64,000 bases of DNA from Natronolimnobius sp. AArcel1 (GTDB lineage Archaea > Halobacteriota > Halobacteria > Halobacteriales > Natrialbaceae), in NCBI RefSeq assembly GCF_011043775.1, contig NZ_JAAKXY010000001.1, positions 287,617-351,616 of the forward strand, given 5' to 3'. Positions 32,098 to 44,522 of this stretch are shown here, one piece after another. Under the pieces are notes generated by a model. It was not told the origin of the DNA. It ran no database searches and saw nothing but the letters and a program-made list of their open reading frames with translations. Every line of letters starts with the position of its first letter. Within the stretch, counting starts at the first letter, position 1. Position numbers and translations under genes: made by a program.

Positions 32098-35000
32098 CTA
32101 CATAAGCGCCGCTACCGTCTCGTTTTCGTCACCTGCAGGTTCGTCGGTGGTCTCTGCCCCCTCACCTGCCTGCTCGTCGGTCTCGTCCGAACCGGCAGTG
32201 TCAGCATCGCCGTCCGCGTCGTCAGCGTCGTCATCTGCGGGCGGGCCGTCGTCCGCAGGTGGCGTCTCTTCTTCCCCACCGTTCGTTGCGCCCGGATCGG
32301 TCTCGGTGTCGCCCTGCTCAGTGTCGTCGTCCTGTTCGTCCTCGTCAGTCACTGGTGGTTCATCGTCCGCCGTCGTATCGTCATCCGGTTCCGCAGTTTC
32401 TTCATCATCCTCGAACTCCGGTACATCTGGGTCGGCAAGGCCTTCGACCGTCGCCGTACCAGCGTCGTCTTCGGTCGCAATCTCGTGTTCAGACTCACCT
32501 TCTATCGCTTCAGAGGTGAACTCGACTGTCTCAGTCTCGCCGCCCTCGAGTTCCAGTTCCGTCTCATCGACGAGATCGCCGTCGACGCTGTAGGTGACGG
32601 TCTGGGTGCCCTCGAGGTCACCGACGTTCGTGATGTCTGCCTGGACAGTGACCTCGTCGCCGACGGAAGCGACTGGGTCAGCGAACACCGGTCCAACCGT
32701 GAACTCGGCAGCCTCACCGGCTTCCTCGATCGTCACCGGCACCTCGTCGCTGTCGTCTTCGCTCGCGACGACTGCGGTGTACTCGTCTGGCTCGATCTCG
32801 TCAGTGTCAGCGGTCAGCGTCACCGACTCAGTCTCGTCGCCCTCAAGTTCGACCGTCTGTGAGTCCACTTCGAGGTCGAGTTCGGCGAGCGAGAGCGTCA
32901 CGTTCTGCTCGCCGGCGTCGTCACCGACGTTCTCGATGTCGGCATCGACCTCGAGTGGCTCACCCTGCTCGACGGGCGAGTTCGTCTCGGTGATCGAGAC
33001 GCTGTAGTTAGCGGGGTCGTCGGGGTCGATCTCGCCCGCTGGCTCGGTTTCAGCGGTAAGCACCTCATCGTAGTCGTGGGTCGACATATCTACTTCCCAG
33101 ACGAGTCGCTCATCGTCGCTTTCGGGCGTCCAGAGGGCCATGAACTCGTGTTCACCGGGCTCGAGTTCGCCGACTGGGTCGTCTTCGGTCGTGCCCTCGA
33201 CGTACTCACTGATGACCGCGAGCATCGCGTCGTTCGGGTTGTCGTAGCCGAACGTGACCTCAATGCCGTCGTCATCCTCGAGTGGCTCGGTTTCTTCGAC
33301 GCCAATGTCGGGCTGTTCTGGCCGGATCTCCTCGAGACAGGTCTCAGAATCCGGGTGTGGGTGGTCGATACCAGCAAACGGGATCGCTTCGTCCGAACTG
33401 ATGCCCGTGATCGCAGTGCCGAAGTCGCCGTAGTCGTTGACGCCGACGGTCACTTCGTCGTCGCCAGTTTCTGTCACGCCGTCGTCCGCGTCGATGTCGA
33501 AGACGACTGTTCCGATAAACGGCGCTTCGATGTCGTCACCGACTGTGACGAAGTCCTCGATGATCGTGTTACCGAAGCCTGCAGAGTCGTAGAATCCGGT
33601 GCTAGCGGCGATCTGGTCGCCGTCCTCGAAGTTACCGGAGACTTCGGCTCGCGTGCAGTCAATGAACTCGACCATGAACGTCGGATCGACCGTGTACTCG
33701 AGCGACTCCGCAGCCAGCGTCTCACCCTCGTCCGTCGACTCGAGGGCGACATCGACCGTCGCGTTGTCCGTGAGTGGCTGGTCGAGGTCGACCGTTTCGT
33801 TATCGAGTCCGGTATCGGGCGCGAACGGCTCGGTCTCGACCAGTTCCGTCTCGTCAGCCGTCGCCGTCAGCACGTACTCGACCGAGGCGTTGGATTCTTG
33901 GACTGTCAACGTCTGTCCGTCACCGGTCTGGTCGGTCACATTGAGTTCCGCATCGTCATCTGGGTCTTCAGGATCGTCGGGATCGGTAACATCCTCGAGC
34001 GTGTACGTAATCGTCTCACTCGCCAGTGTCTCGTCGTCGTCGCTGGCGCGTACGGACACGTTGATTGTCGTCTCGTCCTCGAGTGCTGGCTCGAGGTCAA
34101 CCTCGAGATCGCTCACTGATTCGTCTGCGTCGAACGTCTCGCTGTCGACGCGCTCGCCGTCGTACTCGGCCGCGACGGTGTAGGATTCGCTCGCGTTCGC
34201 CTCGTCGACGAGGAGCGTCTCGCCGTCACCGGTCTGGTCGCTCACCGAGAGCGTTGCCTCCGGGTCTGGGTCCGGCTCAGGATCTGGCTCTTCCTCGTCC
34301 GCAATCGTCACGAACGCGCCGTCGAGAACCGGGCCACCGCTTGCGGTGACGTATGGCTCGTCGTCTGCGCCGTCGCTCTCGACGTACTGGAACGTCTGAT
34401 CGTCGGTCGTGTTGTGATGGACGACCGCGACAAGCGGCTGGCTCTCCTCGAGTGGTTCATCCAGTTCTATCTCGAGGTCTTCGTGGTCGCCGCTCTCGAG
34501 GTAGTCGGAGACGCCGATGACCGCGTCAGGGTCCACATCGGTTGCAACTCCATCGTAGACCGCGACAAAGCCGCCCTCCGAGAGGTCGACGTTGTCGACG
34601 ACGACACTCTCACCATCGGACTCCTGATCAGTGAACGAAATCGAGGCCGTTCCCTCGAGTTCGTCGATTTCTTCGATCTGCTGGCTGATCTCGATTTGGA
34701 CGTGTTGGATGATCTGCGTAACGTCGTCAGTGTCCTCGCCGACGGCGTACGCCGTTGCATCGGCTGCCGTATCTTGGGTGAGGATCTGCAGCTGCGTGAT
34801 GCTGATCTGCTGGTACTGGATCGCACGAGCAGTCTCCTCGCAGGCGGCCTGGGCCGCCGTCTGGATCTGCGTGACTGACGCCTCCTGGTGCTGGATGAGC
34901 GCCCCGCTCGAGGCACCGTGGGCGAGCGTCTGGATCTGTGTGATGTCGACGACCTGCGTCTGGGTGACTGCACCCTGACCAGCGCCGAATGCAGCGGCCT

Positions 35001-36378
35001 GAATCTGCTCGACTTCGACGACCTGCTGTTGCACTGCCGATTCGATTGCTCCTTTCGAGGAGCCAAGTGCCGCGTACTGTATCTGCGTGACCGAAACCTC
35101 CTGGTGCTGGACTAACGCACCCTGCGCACCACCATCAGCAGCGGCCTGAATCTGCTCGACGCTCGCGTCCTGGCTCTGCTGGATGGACCCCTTCGCCGCA
35201 CCGAAGGTCGCCTCCTGAATCTGGGTGATCGAAATGCGCTGGACCTGCTCGATCGTCACCGACTGGACCTGCGCCAGCGAGCCTTTACTCGCCCCGCGCG
35301 CTGCGGACTGGGTCTGCTCGACACTCACTTCCTGGCGCTGCTCGAGTGCGCCCTTCGCCGCACCCGTTGCTGCCTTCTGGATCTGCTTGATATCGACGCG
35401 CTGGTGCTGTTCAACCTCGATATCCTGCTCCTGTTCGAACACCGCCTCAGTGCTGCCCTCGAGCGCACCCGCTGCAGCTCCTGCCGCCGCGTGCTGGACG
35501 TGCTCGAGTGTGACCTGCTGGCGCTGCTCAACAGTTATTTTCTGATACTGCTCGAGGACGCCGTACGCTGCACCTTGTGCGGCTTCCTGAATCTTCGGCG
35601 TGCGGTCGATGTCTTTCTCGCCGGCCTCGCTCGCCGCACCCGCGGCCGCGCCGTAGGTTGCAACCTGAATCTGCTCGACAGTCACGCGCTGTTCTTGCGC
35701 GAGCGCGCCGTGGGTCGCGCCCCAAGTGGCACTCTGCATCTGGGTTGCGTTGACCGTCTGATGCTGGGCCAGTGCACCGTCAGTTGCGCCACCGACTGCG
35801 TACTGGACTTGTGTCGCGTTCACCTCCTGCTCTTGCATCATCGAGCCGTGAACCGCCCCTTTCGTCGCCTCCTGTACCTGCTCGGTGTCAGCCTCTTGAT
35901 GCTGGCTCGCTGCCGCGCTTGCCGCCTCGAGTGCCGCTGCTTGTTGTTCCTGTGTTACCTCGACGCCCTGTGCCTGGGCGAGTTCGACACCCTCCTCGAC
36001 ACCGGCTTCGACGGCATCAGGCGCGTCAGGCTCGTCCTGCGTGGCAGCTTCATCGGTTTCGGTTGCGTCGGCGTCCGCATCCGCCTCCACATCTGCGCCG
36101 TCCAATCCGATTGGCGACTCGAGTGCCACGATGTCGACGTCACCCTGGCTAGTCGTCACAGGGGTCGATTGGTCGTCGCTCTCGTTGCCGGCATCCTCGT
36201 CGTCCTGCTGTGCCTCGACGTCCGTCAGCACGTTGTCGTCATCTGTCGTCTCGTCGCCGTCGACAGTTCCGTCCGCGAACGGGCCCATCCCGCCACCAAG
36301 CAGTGGGAGTGCCACGACGCTCGTGACCATCAGTGCAGCAACCAGAACGACACCGAGTGCCCCCTGTTGCCACCTCAT
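32098..36378 (-). CDS. Giant secreted protein with glutamine-rich 23-residue repeats
   Basis: A 1426-residue surface protein. A Sec-type signal (MRWQQGALGVVLVAALMVTS, cleavage near residue 25) is followed by an acidic linker, then residues 136-570 made of 23-residue glutamine-rich repeats. Next is a DUF7282-type domain (about 577-693: VDNVDLSEGGFVAVYDGVAT), two more related beta domains that each begin SVSDQTGDGETLLV- or NVTDQTGDGQTLTV-like, a cysteine-containing module with CTRAEVSGNFEDGDQI, two CARDB-like domains (VEQGEPLEVDADIENVGDDA), and a 110-residue extremely acidic low-complexity tail ending VAALM. There is no C-terminal membrane anchor or PGF sorting motif. It is probably an adhesion or cell-surface structural protein. 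Confidence 0.85.
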   Translation of the reverse strand: MRWQQGALGVVLVAALMVTSVVALPLLGGGMGPFADGTVDGDETTDDDNVLTDVEAQQDDEDAGNESDDQSTPVTTSQGDVDIVALESPIGLDGADVEADADADATETDEAATQDEPDAPDAVEAGVEEGVELAQAQGVEVTQEQQAAALEAASAAASQHQEADTEQVQEATKGAVHGSMMQEQEVNATQVQYAVGGATDGALAQHQTVNATQMQSATWGATHGALAQEQRVTVEQIQVATYGAAAGAASEAGEKDIDRTPKIQEAAQGAAYGVLEQYQKITVEQRQQVTLEHVQHAAAGAAAGALEGSTEAVFEQEQDIEVEQHQRVDIKQIQKAATGAAKGALEQRQEVSVEQTQSAARGASKGSLAQVQSVTIEQVQRISITQIQEATFGAAKGSIQQSQDASVEQIQAAADGGAQGALVQHQEVSVTQIQYAALGSSKGAIESAVQQQVVEVEQIQAAAFGAGQGAVTQTQVVDITQIQTLAHGASSGALIQHQEASVTQIQTAAQAACEETARAIQYQQISITQLQILTQDTAADATAYAVGEDTDDVTQIIQHVQIEISQQIEEIDELEGTASISFTDQESDGESVVVDNVDLSEGGFVAVYDGVATDVDPDAVIGVSDYLESGDHEDLEIELDEPLEESQPLVAVVHHNTTDDQTFQYVESDGADDEPYVTASGGPVLDGAFVTIADEEEPDPEPDPDPEATLSVSDQTGDGETLLVDEANASESYTVAAEYDGERVDSETFDADESVSDLEVDLEPALEDETTINVSVRASDDDETLASETITYTLEDVTDPDDPEDPDDDAELNVTDQTGDGQTLTVQESNASVEYVLTATADETELVETEPFAPDTGLDNETVDLDQPLTDNATVDVALESTDEGETLAAESLEYTVDPTFMVEFIDCTRAEVSGNFEDGDQIAASTGFYDSAGFGNTIIEDFVTVGDDIEAPFIGTVVFDIDADDGVTETGDDEVTVGVNDYGDFGTAITGISSDEAIPFAGIDHPHPDSETCLEEIRPEQPDIGVEETEPLEDDDGIEVTFGYDNPNDAMLAVISEYVEGTTEDDPVGELEPGEHEFMALWTPESDDERLVWEVDMSTHDYDEVLTAETEPAGEIDPDDPANYSVSITETNSPVEQGEPLEVDADIENVGDDAGEQNVTLSLAELDLEVDSQTVELEGDETESVTLTADTDEIEPDEYTAVVASEDDSDEVPVTIEEAGEAAEFTVGPVFADPVASVGDEVTVQADITNVGDLEGTQTVTYSVDGDLVDETELELEGGETETVEFTSEAIEGESEHEIATEDDAGTATVEGLADPDVPEFEDDEETAEPDDDTTADDEPPVTDEDEQDDDTEQGDTETDPGATNGGEEETPPADDGPPADDDADDADGDADTAGSDETDEQAGEGAETTDEPAGDENETVAALM
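34669..35973 (-). repeat. Array of about 15 glutamine-rich 23-residue repeats
   Basis: Within the giant secreted protein, residues 136-570 repeat a unit with the consensus QxQxVxVxQIQxAAxGAxxGAL. Several copies are exactly 23 residues (for example beginning QHQTVNATQ, QRQEVSVEQ, QSQDASVEQ, QTQVVDITQ). Three places carry an 8-residue insertion of the same pattern (QxxVxxxQ), as in QVQSVTIEQ followed by VQRISITQ. Every unit starts with Gln-x-Gln and ends in Ala/Gly/Ser-rich turns, so an alternating beta strand and helix layer (a solenoid) is plausible. The DNA shows matching periodicity of 69 bases. Confidence 0.85.
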
Positions 36379-40838: not shown

Positions 40839-40991
40839 TCACTCCTCGCCACGATTACTTCCGCGTCTTGTGCGTCTCACTCGAGAGACATCTACATCGA
40901 AACCGCTGATCCCGAGTTCATTAAAGAGGGTCAGTAATTCACTGCCGGCTGATTCATCAAATTCAATCCATGAAAAGACCTGAGGATACGT
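40839..40991 (-). pseudogene. Fragment of a protein-coding gene, no start codon
   Basis: The minus strand from 40991 to the stop at 40839-40841 reads a protein-like sequence of about 50 residues, TYPQVFSWIEFDESAGSELL then TLFNELGISGFDVDVSRVRR, with a stop directly upstream and no ATG, GTG or TTG at its head. Composition suggests a remnant of a larger gene rather than a shadow. The surrounding 40643-41074 stretch is otherwise non-coding and includes an AT-rich part before the K+ channel gene. Confidence 0.3.
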
Positions 40992-41074
40992 CTAGTGGGT
41001 AGCTCAATAGTGGTAGGTCAGACCAGTCAACCAACCTCAGAACAATCATATAGCCTTAATTGAATGTTTGCCAC

Positions 41075-41887
41075 ATGAGCGTGGGGCGTTACTCGGCAAC
41101 TCGCCGATGGACTTGGGAGCTTTTCGAACCAGATCTCGGTGGGAAACTTGGGTACTACACGGACTGGTTTATCATGACACTGATCGCCGTGAATGTAGCG
41201 ATGGTCATTCTTGAAACGGTTGATGCGTTGGCTATCGCTTACAGCGGGGCGTTCTACTATTTCGAGTTGTTCTCGGTGGCTGTCTTTACCATCGAGTATC
41301 TTGGTCGCGTCTGGTCAGCTGTCGATAACCCTGCCTACGAGGGGCCAATCACTGGGCGACTCGAGTTTGCGTCGCGCCCACTGCTAATCGTAGACTTTCT
41401 GGCAATCATCCCCTTCTATTTGACAGTAGTAGGAGTACAAGCAGATCTACGGTTCCTCCGAGCCCTCCGGCTTATTCGTCTCTTTCGACTGTTGAAGCTC
41501 GCCCGGTACTCAACAGCGATGCAATCGTTTGGGTTGGTTATCGAAGAGAAAAAAGAGAAGCTTATACTGGCATTCTCAGCGAATTTACTACTGTTAGTCA
41601 TTGCCTCGAGTGCAATGTATTACATCGAAAACCCCCACCAACCAGAGGCTTTTTCGTCGATTCCGCAGGCGTTCTGGTGGGGTGTTGCAACACTGACGAC
41701 AGTTGGCTACGGTGACGTTCATCCGATCACTCCACTAGGACAGTTCGTTGGTGCAGTTGTTGCAATGTTGGGTATCGGTCTCTTTGCACTCCCTGCATCA
41801 ATCCTTGCCTCCGGGTTTATTGAACAAGCTGAAAATGATGAGAAATCCGCCGACTACTGCCCCCATTGTGGAGAGAAGATCGAGTAG
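41075..41887 (+). CDS. Voltage-gated potassium channel
   Basis: A 270-residue 6-TM Kv-like channel. Helices 1-3 occupy about residues 30-115, S4 is a charged repeat RFLRALRLIRLFRLLKLARY (Arg/Lys every third residue, 126-145), and the pore holds the filter TTVGYGD (208-214) with WWGVATL before it. A C-terminal CPHCGEKIE is half a zinc ribbon; whether the zinc is shared with a second subunit is unknown. KvAP and MVP are archaeal relatives. The ATG at 41075 is preferred to the TTG at 41060. It is less G+C-rich than the core genes around it and lies in a probable accessory segment. Confidence 0.92.
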   Translation: MSVGRYSATRRWTWELFEPDLGGKLGYYTDWFIMTLIAVNVAMVILETVDALAIAYSGAFYYFELFSVAVFTIEYLGRVWSAVDNPAYEGPITGRLEFASRPLLIVDFLAIIPFYLTVVGVQADLRFLRALRLIRLFRLLKLARYSTAMQSFGLVIEEKKEKLILAFSANLLLLVIASSAMYYIENPHQPEAFSSIPQAFWWGVATLTTVGYGDVHPITPLGQFVGAVVAMLGIGLFALPASILASGFIEQAENDEKSADYCPHCGEKIE

Positions 41888-41889
41888 AG

Positions 41890-43539
41890 TTATGAAAACT
41901 CTCGCTTGAGAGCTTCTTTTGCAATCTCTGGTTCTAATACCTCGGAGCCATAGAACACCGATAATGGAAGCTCATATCCTTCTTCGGCATATGTCTCAAT
42001 CCAATATTCTGCAAATTGTTTGAGATCACTTGCCTTTACTAGACGAATATCGATACCACCGACTTGCATTTCGAGTTTCTTTGCGTTCTGCTTTGCGTTG
42101 TCCGTGAAATCAGGTGCAATGATAAGGAACCATTCGACCTGATGTTGTTGGCTTTTTGTATCGATATAGTTCTTGATCTTACTTTGTGTATTGCTCCCTA
42201 GTTTGAACTTGTTGATACGCCGCTTGTTGTCCCATAAGAGCCATTTCCCATCCTGTTCAATCTCTCCATCTGCAACAATCCCACTCGCCTTCTGGCCCAG
42301 AAGTTCTGTTCCATCGACATTGAATATCTCTTTGAAAATCTCACTCGTTGCCTGTTCAAATAGCATATCCATCTTTCTAGATGGATCATCTTCGTCAACG
42401 ACCTGCTGTAGCTGTGGTGGGATTCTCTCGACATTTCCATCTGAGATATCCTCATAACACTTCAAGAAGAGTTCTGCAGCAGCTTCCTCATCATCGGTTG
42501 TGATCTGTTTTTGTGATTGCTCGAAATACTCGATGGTCGCTTCAATCATCTCGTCGGTTTTTTGCTTGTGAGCGTCCAGACTATACTCGTCAACGATTCC
42601 TTTCAATTCCTTTTTAGTTAGTCCCTCTGCGAGCAACTGACTCGGAAAAATGCCAGCCTTGACGAGACTCTCGCGGCGCTTATCGTTGCGGCCTTTGGTT
42701 CCTGTCTCGACACCGAACGTGTTCCGAGCATCTACAAGCGTTTTCTGTTTGTCGAATGGTTCCAGTGTCTCGAGCATCTGTAGATAATTCTCCTCAGACA
42801 TCTCATAATAGAGCCAGTCCCGGATATAGTCGATATAGTCCTCAGGAATGCCAACTAATTCGTTTGTATCCTCGGTGTTGACTTCATAGATGATGGCCTG
42901 TTCTTGCAACGACCATAGGCCCTTCTCAATCGTATCTAACGCATGCTCAGGCTTCTCCGAGCGAGAAACTTTTGGGAACCGTCCAATTGCTGAAAGTCGT
43001 TTAAAGAAATCAAACCAAGTATAGTATTCGTGTTTCTTTTCCTTGGCCCTGTTGTGGAGTTCGAAGTAACTATAGACCATATGGAGTTCGGAATCGTACA
43101 CATCTGAGCCATAGTCAACTGCTGCCTTCGCAAGGTGGAGCAGTTCATCACTATCATCAAAATCGTCCTCACTATAGTCATTGATGAGGTCCTGCTGCCA
43201 AGATTGGACACTCTCAAGTAGAATCTCCTTTTCCATGTTAAAATCCAGTTGTTGAATTAGTGTGCGGAGAATCCCATATCGAATCACCAAGGCCTGATAA
43301 GAAGAGTCGTTGACTGAGTCGAGTCGTGGTGGTGTAAAATTATTGAGTTCAGCATCCAATCGCGTGTCCTCCGCTAATGCTGGAACATATGTCTCGAAAT
43401 ATCGCTCGCGGTTATCGAAACCGTCGTGTTTGAACGATTCTGGATCAAACGATTCGGTTTTTTCCTTAGTCCTATCCTTGAGAAACCGTTTTCGCTCATA
43501 ACTATTCCATTGAGTATCAATCAAATCACGTAATTTCAT
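41890..43539 (-). CDS. FokI-like PD-(D/E)XK nuclease with helical N-terminus
   Basis: A 549-residue protein, noticeably AT-rich and lysine-rich for this genome. The C-terminal 130 residues resemble the FokI cleavage domain: GQKASGIVADGEIEQDGKW with the first acidic residue (D424), WDNK giving the DxK pair (D437, K439), a Lys/Arg-rich loop, then FLIIAPDFTDNAKQ and GIDIRLVKASDL as the later strands, ending in the FY...EIAKEAL tail. E395 (in FEQATSEIF) may be the additional acid. Upstream, LTKKELKGIVDEYSL (308-322) is SAP-like, and the first 290 residues are helical of unknown fold. It may be a restriction or defence nuclease; no methyltransferase is adjacent. ATG at 43537-43539. Confidence 0.8.
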   Translation of the reverse strand: MKLRDLIDTQWNSYERKRFLKDRTKEKTESFDPESFKHDGFDNRERYFETYVPALAEDTRLDAELNNFTPPRLDSVNDSSYQALVIRYGILRTLIQQLDFNMEKEILLESVQSWQQDLINDYSEDDFDDSDELLHLAKAAVDYGSDVYDSELHMVYSYFELHNRAKEKKHEYYTWFDFFKRLSAIGRFPKVSRSEKPEHALDTIEKGLWSLQEQAIIYEVNTEDTNELVGIPEDYIDYIRDWLYYEMSEENYLQMLETLEPFDKQKTLVDARNTFGVETGTKGRNDKRRESLVKAGIFPSQLLAEGLTKKELKGIVDEYSLDAHKQKTDEMIEATIEYFEQSQKQITTDDEEAAAELFLKCYEDISDGNVERIPPQLQQVVDEDDPSRKMDMLFEQATSEIFKEIFNVDGTELLGQKASGIVADGEIEQDGKWLLWDNKRRINKFKLGSNTQSKIKNYIDTKSQQHQVEWFLIIAPDFTDNAKQNAKKLEMQVGGIDIRLVKASDLKQFAEYWIETYAEEGYELPLSVFYGSEVLEPEIAKEALKREFS

Positions 43540-44348
43540 ATGAATAAGACAATCAGGGACATACACACAGATATAACTTATTGTCTATTTGATTGCTTAG
43601 TCTACTGAATTGGAATCTAACCTCGAGTTTACACTCTCAAAAGGATAACAAGCCATTCTGGTAGCTCCACTAATTGTTTAAGATCCATCTAATTCTACGA
43701 TTCACTCCACAGTCGTCTTGTCGAATACAACTCCAAACCGGTAGACGTCTCATCGTCCTCGAGATCGAGGAATACCACCAATCCGTATCGGCTTCAGAGC
43801 TTTCCCTCAAGCAGTGCTATGTCCAATGCGGTCGCCGGCTGATCACACCCGCAGTCATCTCACCCCCACACCTTCGTGTGGGTTTCCAAATTACTTGGGA
43901 AGCACAGCTAATACAGATAGTCTCGATTTTCGAAATGGCGAGGGGTGGGGGACTGTCGTTGCCACCGGCTCCCGTGCGAAGACATCACCACCTCGCCAAC
44001 TACGGAGATGGACACGCAGCCATCTTCGAGAATCCCACCACCTATAGTTCTCGAGCAGCGCTTTAGAACGGAGAATCCACGAAAAGAGAACGTTCAGATG
44101 TGCTCTTCGCTGTGACTGATCCAGTCCTCAATCTTGGCAACGCCCTCGTCAGGCGTCTGCCTCCCTGTAATCGAATCCCGCTCGAGTGGGGCTTCGAAAC
44201 AGCCAGCTACCATGCCGGCGCATCCCCGTTACCCGCAATTTCGGCCTGTGATTCATGACGACTTGTGGGGGTGCTCGAGGATGTGAAACCCCACGCAGGT
44301 CTCGAGGTGTTCGTCTCTGAGACTGGGATTATAAGTAATTTAGTAGGG
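43540..44348. other. AT-rich intergenic stretch with hairpin and ORF fragments
   Basis: About 800 bases upstream of the nuclease gene with no gene I can support. A perfect hairpin, CCCACAC (43865-43871) with GTGTGGG (43876-43882) around CTTC, is present. On the minus strand, 44094-44213 holds a 39-codon ORF (MVAGCFEAPLERDSITGRQT, then PDEGVAKIEDWISHSEEHI) that looks like a decayed gene end. This looks like eroded accessory DNA next to a tRNA. Confidence 0.4.
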
Positions 44349-44369
44349 GCCGGTGGAGGGATTTGAACC
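44349..44369. repeat. 21-bp duplicate of the tRNA-Thr 3' end (att-like)
   Basis: The sequence GCCGGTGGAGGGATTTGAAC plus one C recurs exactly at 44450-44470, where it is the acceptor and T-arm end of tRNA-Thr. Here the rest of the tRNA is missing, so this is a 3' fragment 101 bp away. Such duplications arise when a tyrosine integrase inserts an element into a tRNA gene. A 14-bp inverted copy also lies at 44396-44409, pairing with 44354-44367. Confidence 0.65.
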
Positions 44370-44448
44370 ACGGTCGGAGCGGAGCTCCTCCCTGATTCAA
44401 ATCCCTCCAGTCGCTCTTTCACTCCTCACGTTCGTTCGTCGCAGAAAG

Positions 44449-44522
44449 AGCCGGTGGAGGGATTTGAACCCTCGACCTAATCCTTACGAAGGATTCGCTC
44501 TGCCAGTCTGAGCTACACCGGC
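44449..44522 (-). tRNA. tRNA-Thr (anticodon CGT)
   Basis: A complete cloverleaf on the minus strand: acceptor GCCGGTG/CACCGGC, D-arm GCTC...GAGC, anticodon stem AATCC/GGATT with loop TTCGTAA (anticodon CGT, reading ACG), and T-arm GAGGG-TTCAAAT-CCCTC. The discriminator is U and CCA is not encoded. It is the likely target of an integrated element, because its 3' end is duplicated at 44349-44369. Confidence 0.97.

Follow-up and report, generated by a model that had tools for sequence, protein, structure and literature searches.

The locus and its nuclease gene

The window, meaning the whole stretch of 64,000 nucleotides from Natronolimnobius sp. AArcel1 that was analyzed, is haloarchaeal in character, encoding acidic proteins at a G+C content of about 60%. 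Within it lies an inserted block of lower G+C content carrying two genes, which are arranged tail-to-tail with 2 bases between the open reading frames (ORFs):

40886 to 43745, no strand: inserted block of ~2.86 kb, 45% G+C, with a channel gene and a nuclease gene as its sole cargo (empty site in genome G062)
41060 to 41887, plus strand: Kv-type ion channel gene, likely start ATG 41075 (PF00520, E 4.5e-32)
41890 to 43539, minus strand: FokI-type nuclease gene, 549 aa (ORF with ATG at 43539 and stop at 41890)

The nuclease ORF had been picked out in an earlier note on this DNA, and it is present exactly there, with the AT-rich composition ascribed to it: 43.8% G+C, where most of the window has ~60%. 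The gene is real: over 200 mononucleotide shuffles of the 2.86-kb insert, no open stretch exceeded 207 codons, and 18 further full-length homologues (61–70% identity) align with the initial methionine and most of the length conserved and with few gaps of one or two residues each; one more full-length homologue, in genome G397, is 84% identical. In G062, a genome of the same genus, the flanks of the block are continuous at 84–88% identity and 28 bases stand in place of window positions 40886–43745. The nuclease gene is foreign to its host and mobile.

A FokI-type cleavage domain

The predicted structure shows the C-terminal ~165 residues to be a FokI-type PD-(D/E)XK cleavage domain:

41893 to 42387, minus strand: FokI-type cleavage domain, residues ~385–549 (AlphaFold2 model matching 2FOK; transitive link to Pfam PF09254)
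42223 to 42270, minus strand: catalytic block (D424 at 42268–42270, D437 at 42229–42231, K439 at 42223–42225)

The AlphaFold2 model has a pLDDT of mostly 84–94 over residues ~430–549 and ~68–89 over residues ~385–429, and a fold search of it against the PDB returned the two chains of the FokI structure 2FOK, 2fok_A and 2fok_B, as the top two matches (E 1.2e-3, probability 1.00). All 22 full-length proteins examined (22 of 22) keep the block VADG...LLWDNKRR intact, with D424, D437 and K439 invariant. Protein-sequence searches of PDB, NCBIfam, PADLOC and PHROGs gave nothing significant, a Pfam search did not detect FokI_cleav_dom (PF09254) in the window protein itself, and a viral fold search found generic phage restriction endonucleases only, none at E <= 0.001. 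The same Pfam family matches 4 of 19 homologues weakly, below its cut-off (best E 0.013), and is reached transitively through distant haloarchaeal proteins (L024 and L025), which exceed its curated cut-off and align to residues 374–517 of the window protein (hhalign E 1.8e-5, probability 78%), GIVADGE...LLWDNKRR being paired with GRNPDG...IIYDAKSRR. The best model match to 2FOK, the invariant catalytic residues and this transitive link bear out the FokI-like nuclease domain named in the earlier note. As the fold is of the FokI type and the catalytic block is intact throughout, the window protein is likely to cut DNA.

The distant proteins (L024:1360-2709 and L025:691-2040), 449 aa in length and 95% identical between two genera, are a second haloarchaeal FokI-domain protein with a different, uncharacterized N-terminus. 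They share with the window protein ~24–26% identity, in the nuclease part only, and their N-terminal part is unrelated to it by sequence.

FokI itself, a type IIS enzyme (2FOK, PF09254), resembles the window protein in its C-terminal PD-(D/E)XK domain, with matching catalytic residues and the same order of later strands and helices, and in being a single chain with an N-terminal recognition part, an arrangement that is presumed for the window protein. The two differ in that the N-terminal ~345 aa of the window protein are unlike FokI recognition domains at the sequence level, that it has no partner methyltransferase, and that PF09254 is not significant in it.

The N-terminal part

42640 to 43539, minus strand: helical N-terminal module, presumed sensor or DNA-recognition part, residues 1–300 (no family match; as conserved as the nuclease part)
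42505 to 42639, minus strand: possible SAP-like segment, residues 301–345 (resemblance by eye)

Searches of Pfam, NCBIfam and PADLOC found nothing matching residues 1–345, the PHROGs matches are weak and insignificant, and no protein of solved structure in the PDB matches these residues by sequence. The earlier note had seen in this part a helical region and a SAP-like part together forming an unknown target-recognition module. The N-terminus is predicted to be helical, at a pLDDT mostly below 50, and two AlphaFold2 models, of the kind the note had called for, are unreliable there (mean pLDDT 59 and 50). The SAP-like part is a likeness by eye: no Pfam SAP match appears up to E 1 in 19 family members and the model is of low confidence at residues ~301–345. 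Pfam also shows no modified-base reader such as SRA, EVE or YTH in the family, in a region where the model is unreliable. Residues 1–345 are thus accounted for by none of the libraries, by no sequence in the PDB and by no confident model, in keeping with the unknown module of the earlier note, and a role in recognition is presumptive.

The N-terminus is as well conserved as the cleavage domain, the mean pairwise identity being 0.716 for residues 1–194, 0.699 for residues 195–300 and 0.695 for the FokI part. A target-recognition domain that diversifies, switching from one sequence to another, should evolve faster than the rest of the protein, which makes it more likely that the target or ligand is fixed.

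Distribution and horizontal transfer

The family is haloarchaeal, patchy, horizontally transferred and often decayed. Matches were found in 25 of 391 sampled Halobacteria genomes, a count that includes decayed fragments and two genomes whose sole match is by way of the distant FokI domain. Among genomes sampled from the phylum, none outside the same order had a match. In a tree of the homologues, genomes of one family (f1) fall in three separate places, archaeal families are mixed, and three proviral copies lie in three places. Fragments or interrupted copies, some of which may be assembly effects, occur in G225, G335, G194, G060/Halalkalicoccus jeotgali, G185 and a MAG. A housekeeping role was rejected because the distribution is patchy even inside one genus; the earlier note had named a constant housekeeping context of the homologues as an observation that would speak against its proposal, and the neighborhood survey found no such constancy.

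Neighboring defense genes and methyltransferases

Defense neighbors occur at about a quarter of the nuclease loci. In G397 the nuclease and a channel gene lie between an McrB-like gene and BrxA/BrxB/BrxC/PglX (BREX); the neighbors are UvrD/PD-DEXK, HKD-Snf2 and type IIG-like genes in L046, a D12 methyltransferase, Mrr and a C5 methyltransferase in G017, Mrr in G027, and an N6 methylase, a helicase and an integrase in pNVE500. Several copies lie among metabolic genes. Enrichment over control loci is in the expected direction, modest and too small to convince, and because the control set also held a CRISPR locus (at 1 of 12 loci) the context is suggestive, not decisive. PADLOC has no model of the nuclease. 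The earlier proposal of a defense effector or modification-dependent nuclease is supported only through context, namely proviruses, McrB-like/BREX, Mrr and type IIG neighbors, patchiness, decay and foreign composition.

One reading of this context is an abortive-infection effector, in which the N-terminus would sense infection, by way of a protein of the virus or a DNA complex, and the nuclease would then degrade all DNA and kill the cell. Carriage by viruses and defense islands, frequent decay of copies, the low-G+C cargo character and the lack of a protective enzyme would fit it, but the nuclease loci share no constantly linked gene of the sensor, regulator or cyclic-nucleotide kind, and G296 has two copies that are both intact and divergent from each other. 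We regard this reading as quite unlikely.

FokI-type domains are typically found in type IIS enzymes, which makes a classical type II (IIS-like) enzyme another candidate: the N-terminus would read a fixed sequence, and the host would be protected by an unlinked orphan methyltransferase or by absence of the site. As the earlier note had stated, no methyltransferase adjoins the nuclease in the window, and this is true of nearly all homologues: a D12 methyltransferase, which would suit the IIS-like reading, adjoins it at one of ~22 loci, and none is constant among the neighbors of ~21 loci. No C5 or D12 methyltransferase was found in the window genome at the cut-off used, and the N4/N6 family has no match in three Halorubrum carriers. 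These absences and the non-diversifying N-terminus argue against a IIS-like enzyme. Orphan methyltransferases, on the other side, are widespread in haloarchaea (PMC6471742). On balance this reading seems unlikely.

When 20 carriers were compared with 34 non-carriers for C5, D12 and N4/N6 enzymes, each class was missing from at least one carrier and showed no significant association with carriage (Fisher p 0.40, 1.0 and 0.14, respectively). With no class constant or significantly shifted in carriers, neither a common cognate enzyme of these classes nor a strict incompatibility with them is seen, and the carriage pattern gives no support for modification dependence involving these broad classes.

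Copies in proviruses

Three tailed proviruses carry homologues of the nuclease. Humcor1 (MW344765) is a siphovirus that has been induced from Halorubrum coriense (PMC7911831). Its gene HrrHm1_140, whose product has the annotation hypothetical and is a homologue at 64%, lies in a cargo slot between the tail and replication modules together with genes for an ion channel, a YdjM hydrolase and YbaK. The Humcor1-like provirus of Halorubrum rubrum (G170) has the nuclease in the same slot, where the tail genes and those downstream are also the same, and the more divergent provirus of G125 has it beside orc1. When viral contigs were scanned with the N-terminal profile, the distant relatives and the channel, the Halorubrum coriense provirus was the only one recovered. 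The YdjM hydrolase was considered as a conserved partner and rejected, being close only in Humcor1 and two related Halorubrum genomes.

Carriage by three proviruses, the Humcor1 cargo slot and the position beside orc1 could also mean that the nuclease benefits the virus or element, by degrading host DNA, promoting element mobility or excluding rivals with no benefit to the host. Most copies, however, are chromosomal and outside any recognizable provirus, and the homologues show neither recurrent conserved flanks nor any similar sign of homing or integration. We regard this reading as very improbable.

The potassium-channel-type neighbor

The least expected observation is the recurrent K+-channel neighbor, seen in five genomes. 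The product of the window channel gene has the filter TVGYGD, an arginine-rich S4 and a C-terminal CPHCG zinc-ribbon-like end, and a Kv-type channel lies 0–1.4 kb from the nuclease in the window genome (G000) as well as in G397, G393 (Saliphagus), G247 (Natronococcus) and Humcor1, directly tail-to-tail with it in three of these five genomes or viruses; the pair is co-linear and homologous between the window and G397. Across the 61 genomes of the archaeal family that were searched, channel homologues (identity of ~48% or more, with partial and decayed copies counted) occur in 5 of 6 nuclease carriers versus 9 of 55 others (Fisher p 0.002), and four adjacencies among seven carriers would have a probability of ~7e-10 under random placement, both figures being optimistic because of shared descent.

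A two-gene anti-virus cassette of haloarchaea and proviruses could be imagined, in which one arm would act on DNA and the second on K+ or the membrane potential, so that a FokI nuclease and a Kv channel together would follow a RexAB-like logic. RexA and RexB of phage lambda are a prophage-borne DNA-complex sensor and an ion channel. The analogy would lie in a prophage-borne, DNA-acting gene recurrently found beside an ion channel gene; it stops at the orientation of the window genes, which are convergent and not an operon, at the Kv type of the channel, and at the fact that most nuclease loci have no channel. Adjacency within 1.4 kb in five cases, joint insertion and co-linearity with G397 favor the cassette, and ~15 nuclease loci without a channel and the convergent orientation oppose it. 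In G212 the channel is 2 Mb from the nuclease, beside an infB-like gene, so the link is not obligatory. We regard a functional cassette as very improbable.

Proposed mode of action

The reading that we favor, with a probability of about one half, is a stand-alone restriction-type defense nuclease carried as mobile cargo, either type IV-like or structure-sensing. The N-terminal ~345 residues would bind DNA carrying one fixed feature, which may be a chemical modification or a structure such as an end or a branched intermediate of replication, and would not be a variable sequence. Upon binding, the C-terminal FokI-type PD-(D/E)XK domains of two molecules would pair and cut the DNA with divalent metal. 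The trigger would be absent from host DNA, so that no partner methyltransferase would be needed. Proviruses may carry the nuclease against competing viruses, and chromosomes may carry it within defense islands.

Like the type IV systems Mrr and McrBC, this is a nuclease family without its own methyltransferase, patchy in distribution and at some loci beside Mrr- or McrB-like genes; it differs from them in its FokI-type, not Mrr-type, catalytic domain, in having no NTPase and in that no known modified-base reader was detected. The two surveys of archaeal restriction-modification that were searched do not mention FokI or type IIS, and the family is apparently unnamed there. If it restricts viruses, it would be a FokI-type nuclease family with an undescribed recognition module, present in archaeal proviruses and in their hosts; the FokI cleavage domain would then be used in archaea outside methyltransferase-paired systems, and a salt-adapted FokI module would be on offer.

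Other features of the window

44448 to 44522, minus strand: tRNA-Thr(CGT) (ARAGORN)

The 3′ end of this tRNA gene is partly duplicated at 44342–44369, giving a 28-nt direct repeat, 89% identical and 101 nt apart. The slot near it is variable, being occupied in G062 by an insert of ~1.85 kb that carries an MgtE-like CBS/transporter ORF, as opposed to ~320 bp in the window. Elsewhere, positions 32098–36378 encode a secreted-looking protein of 1426 aa with unusual glutamine-rich repeats (VEQIQ/ITQIQ...AAxGAxxGAL) followed by acidic CARDB-like stretches.
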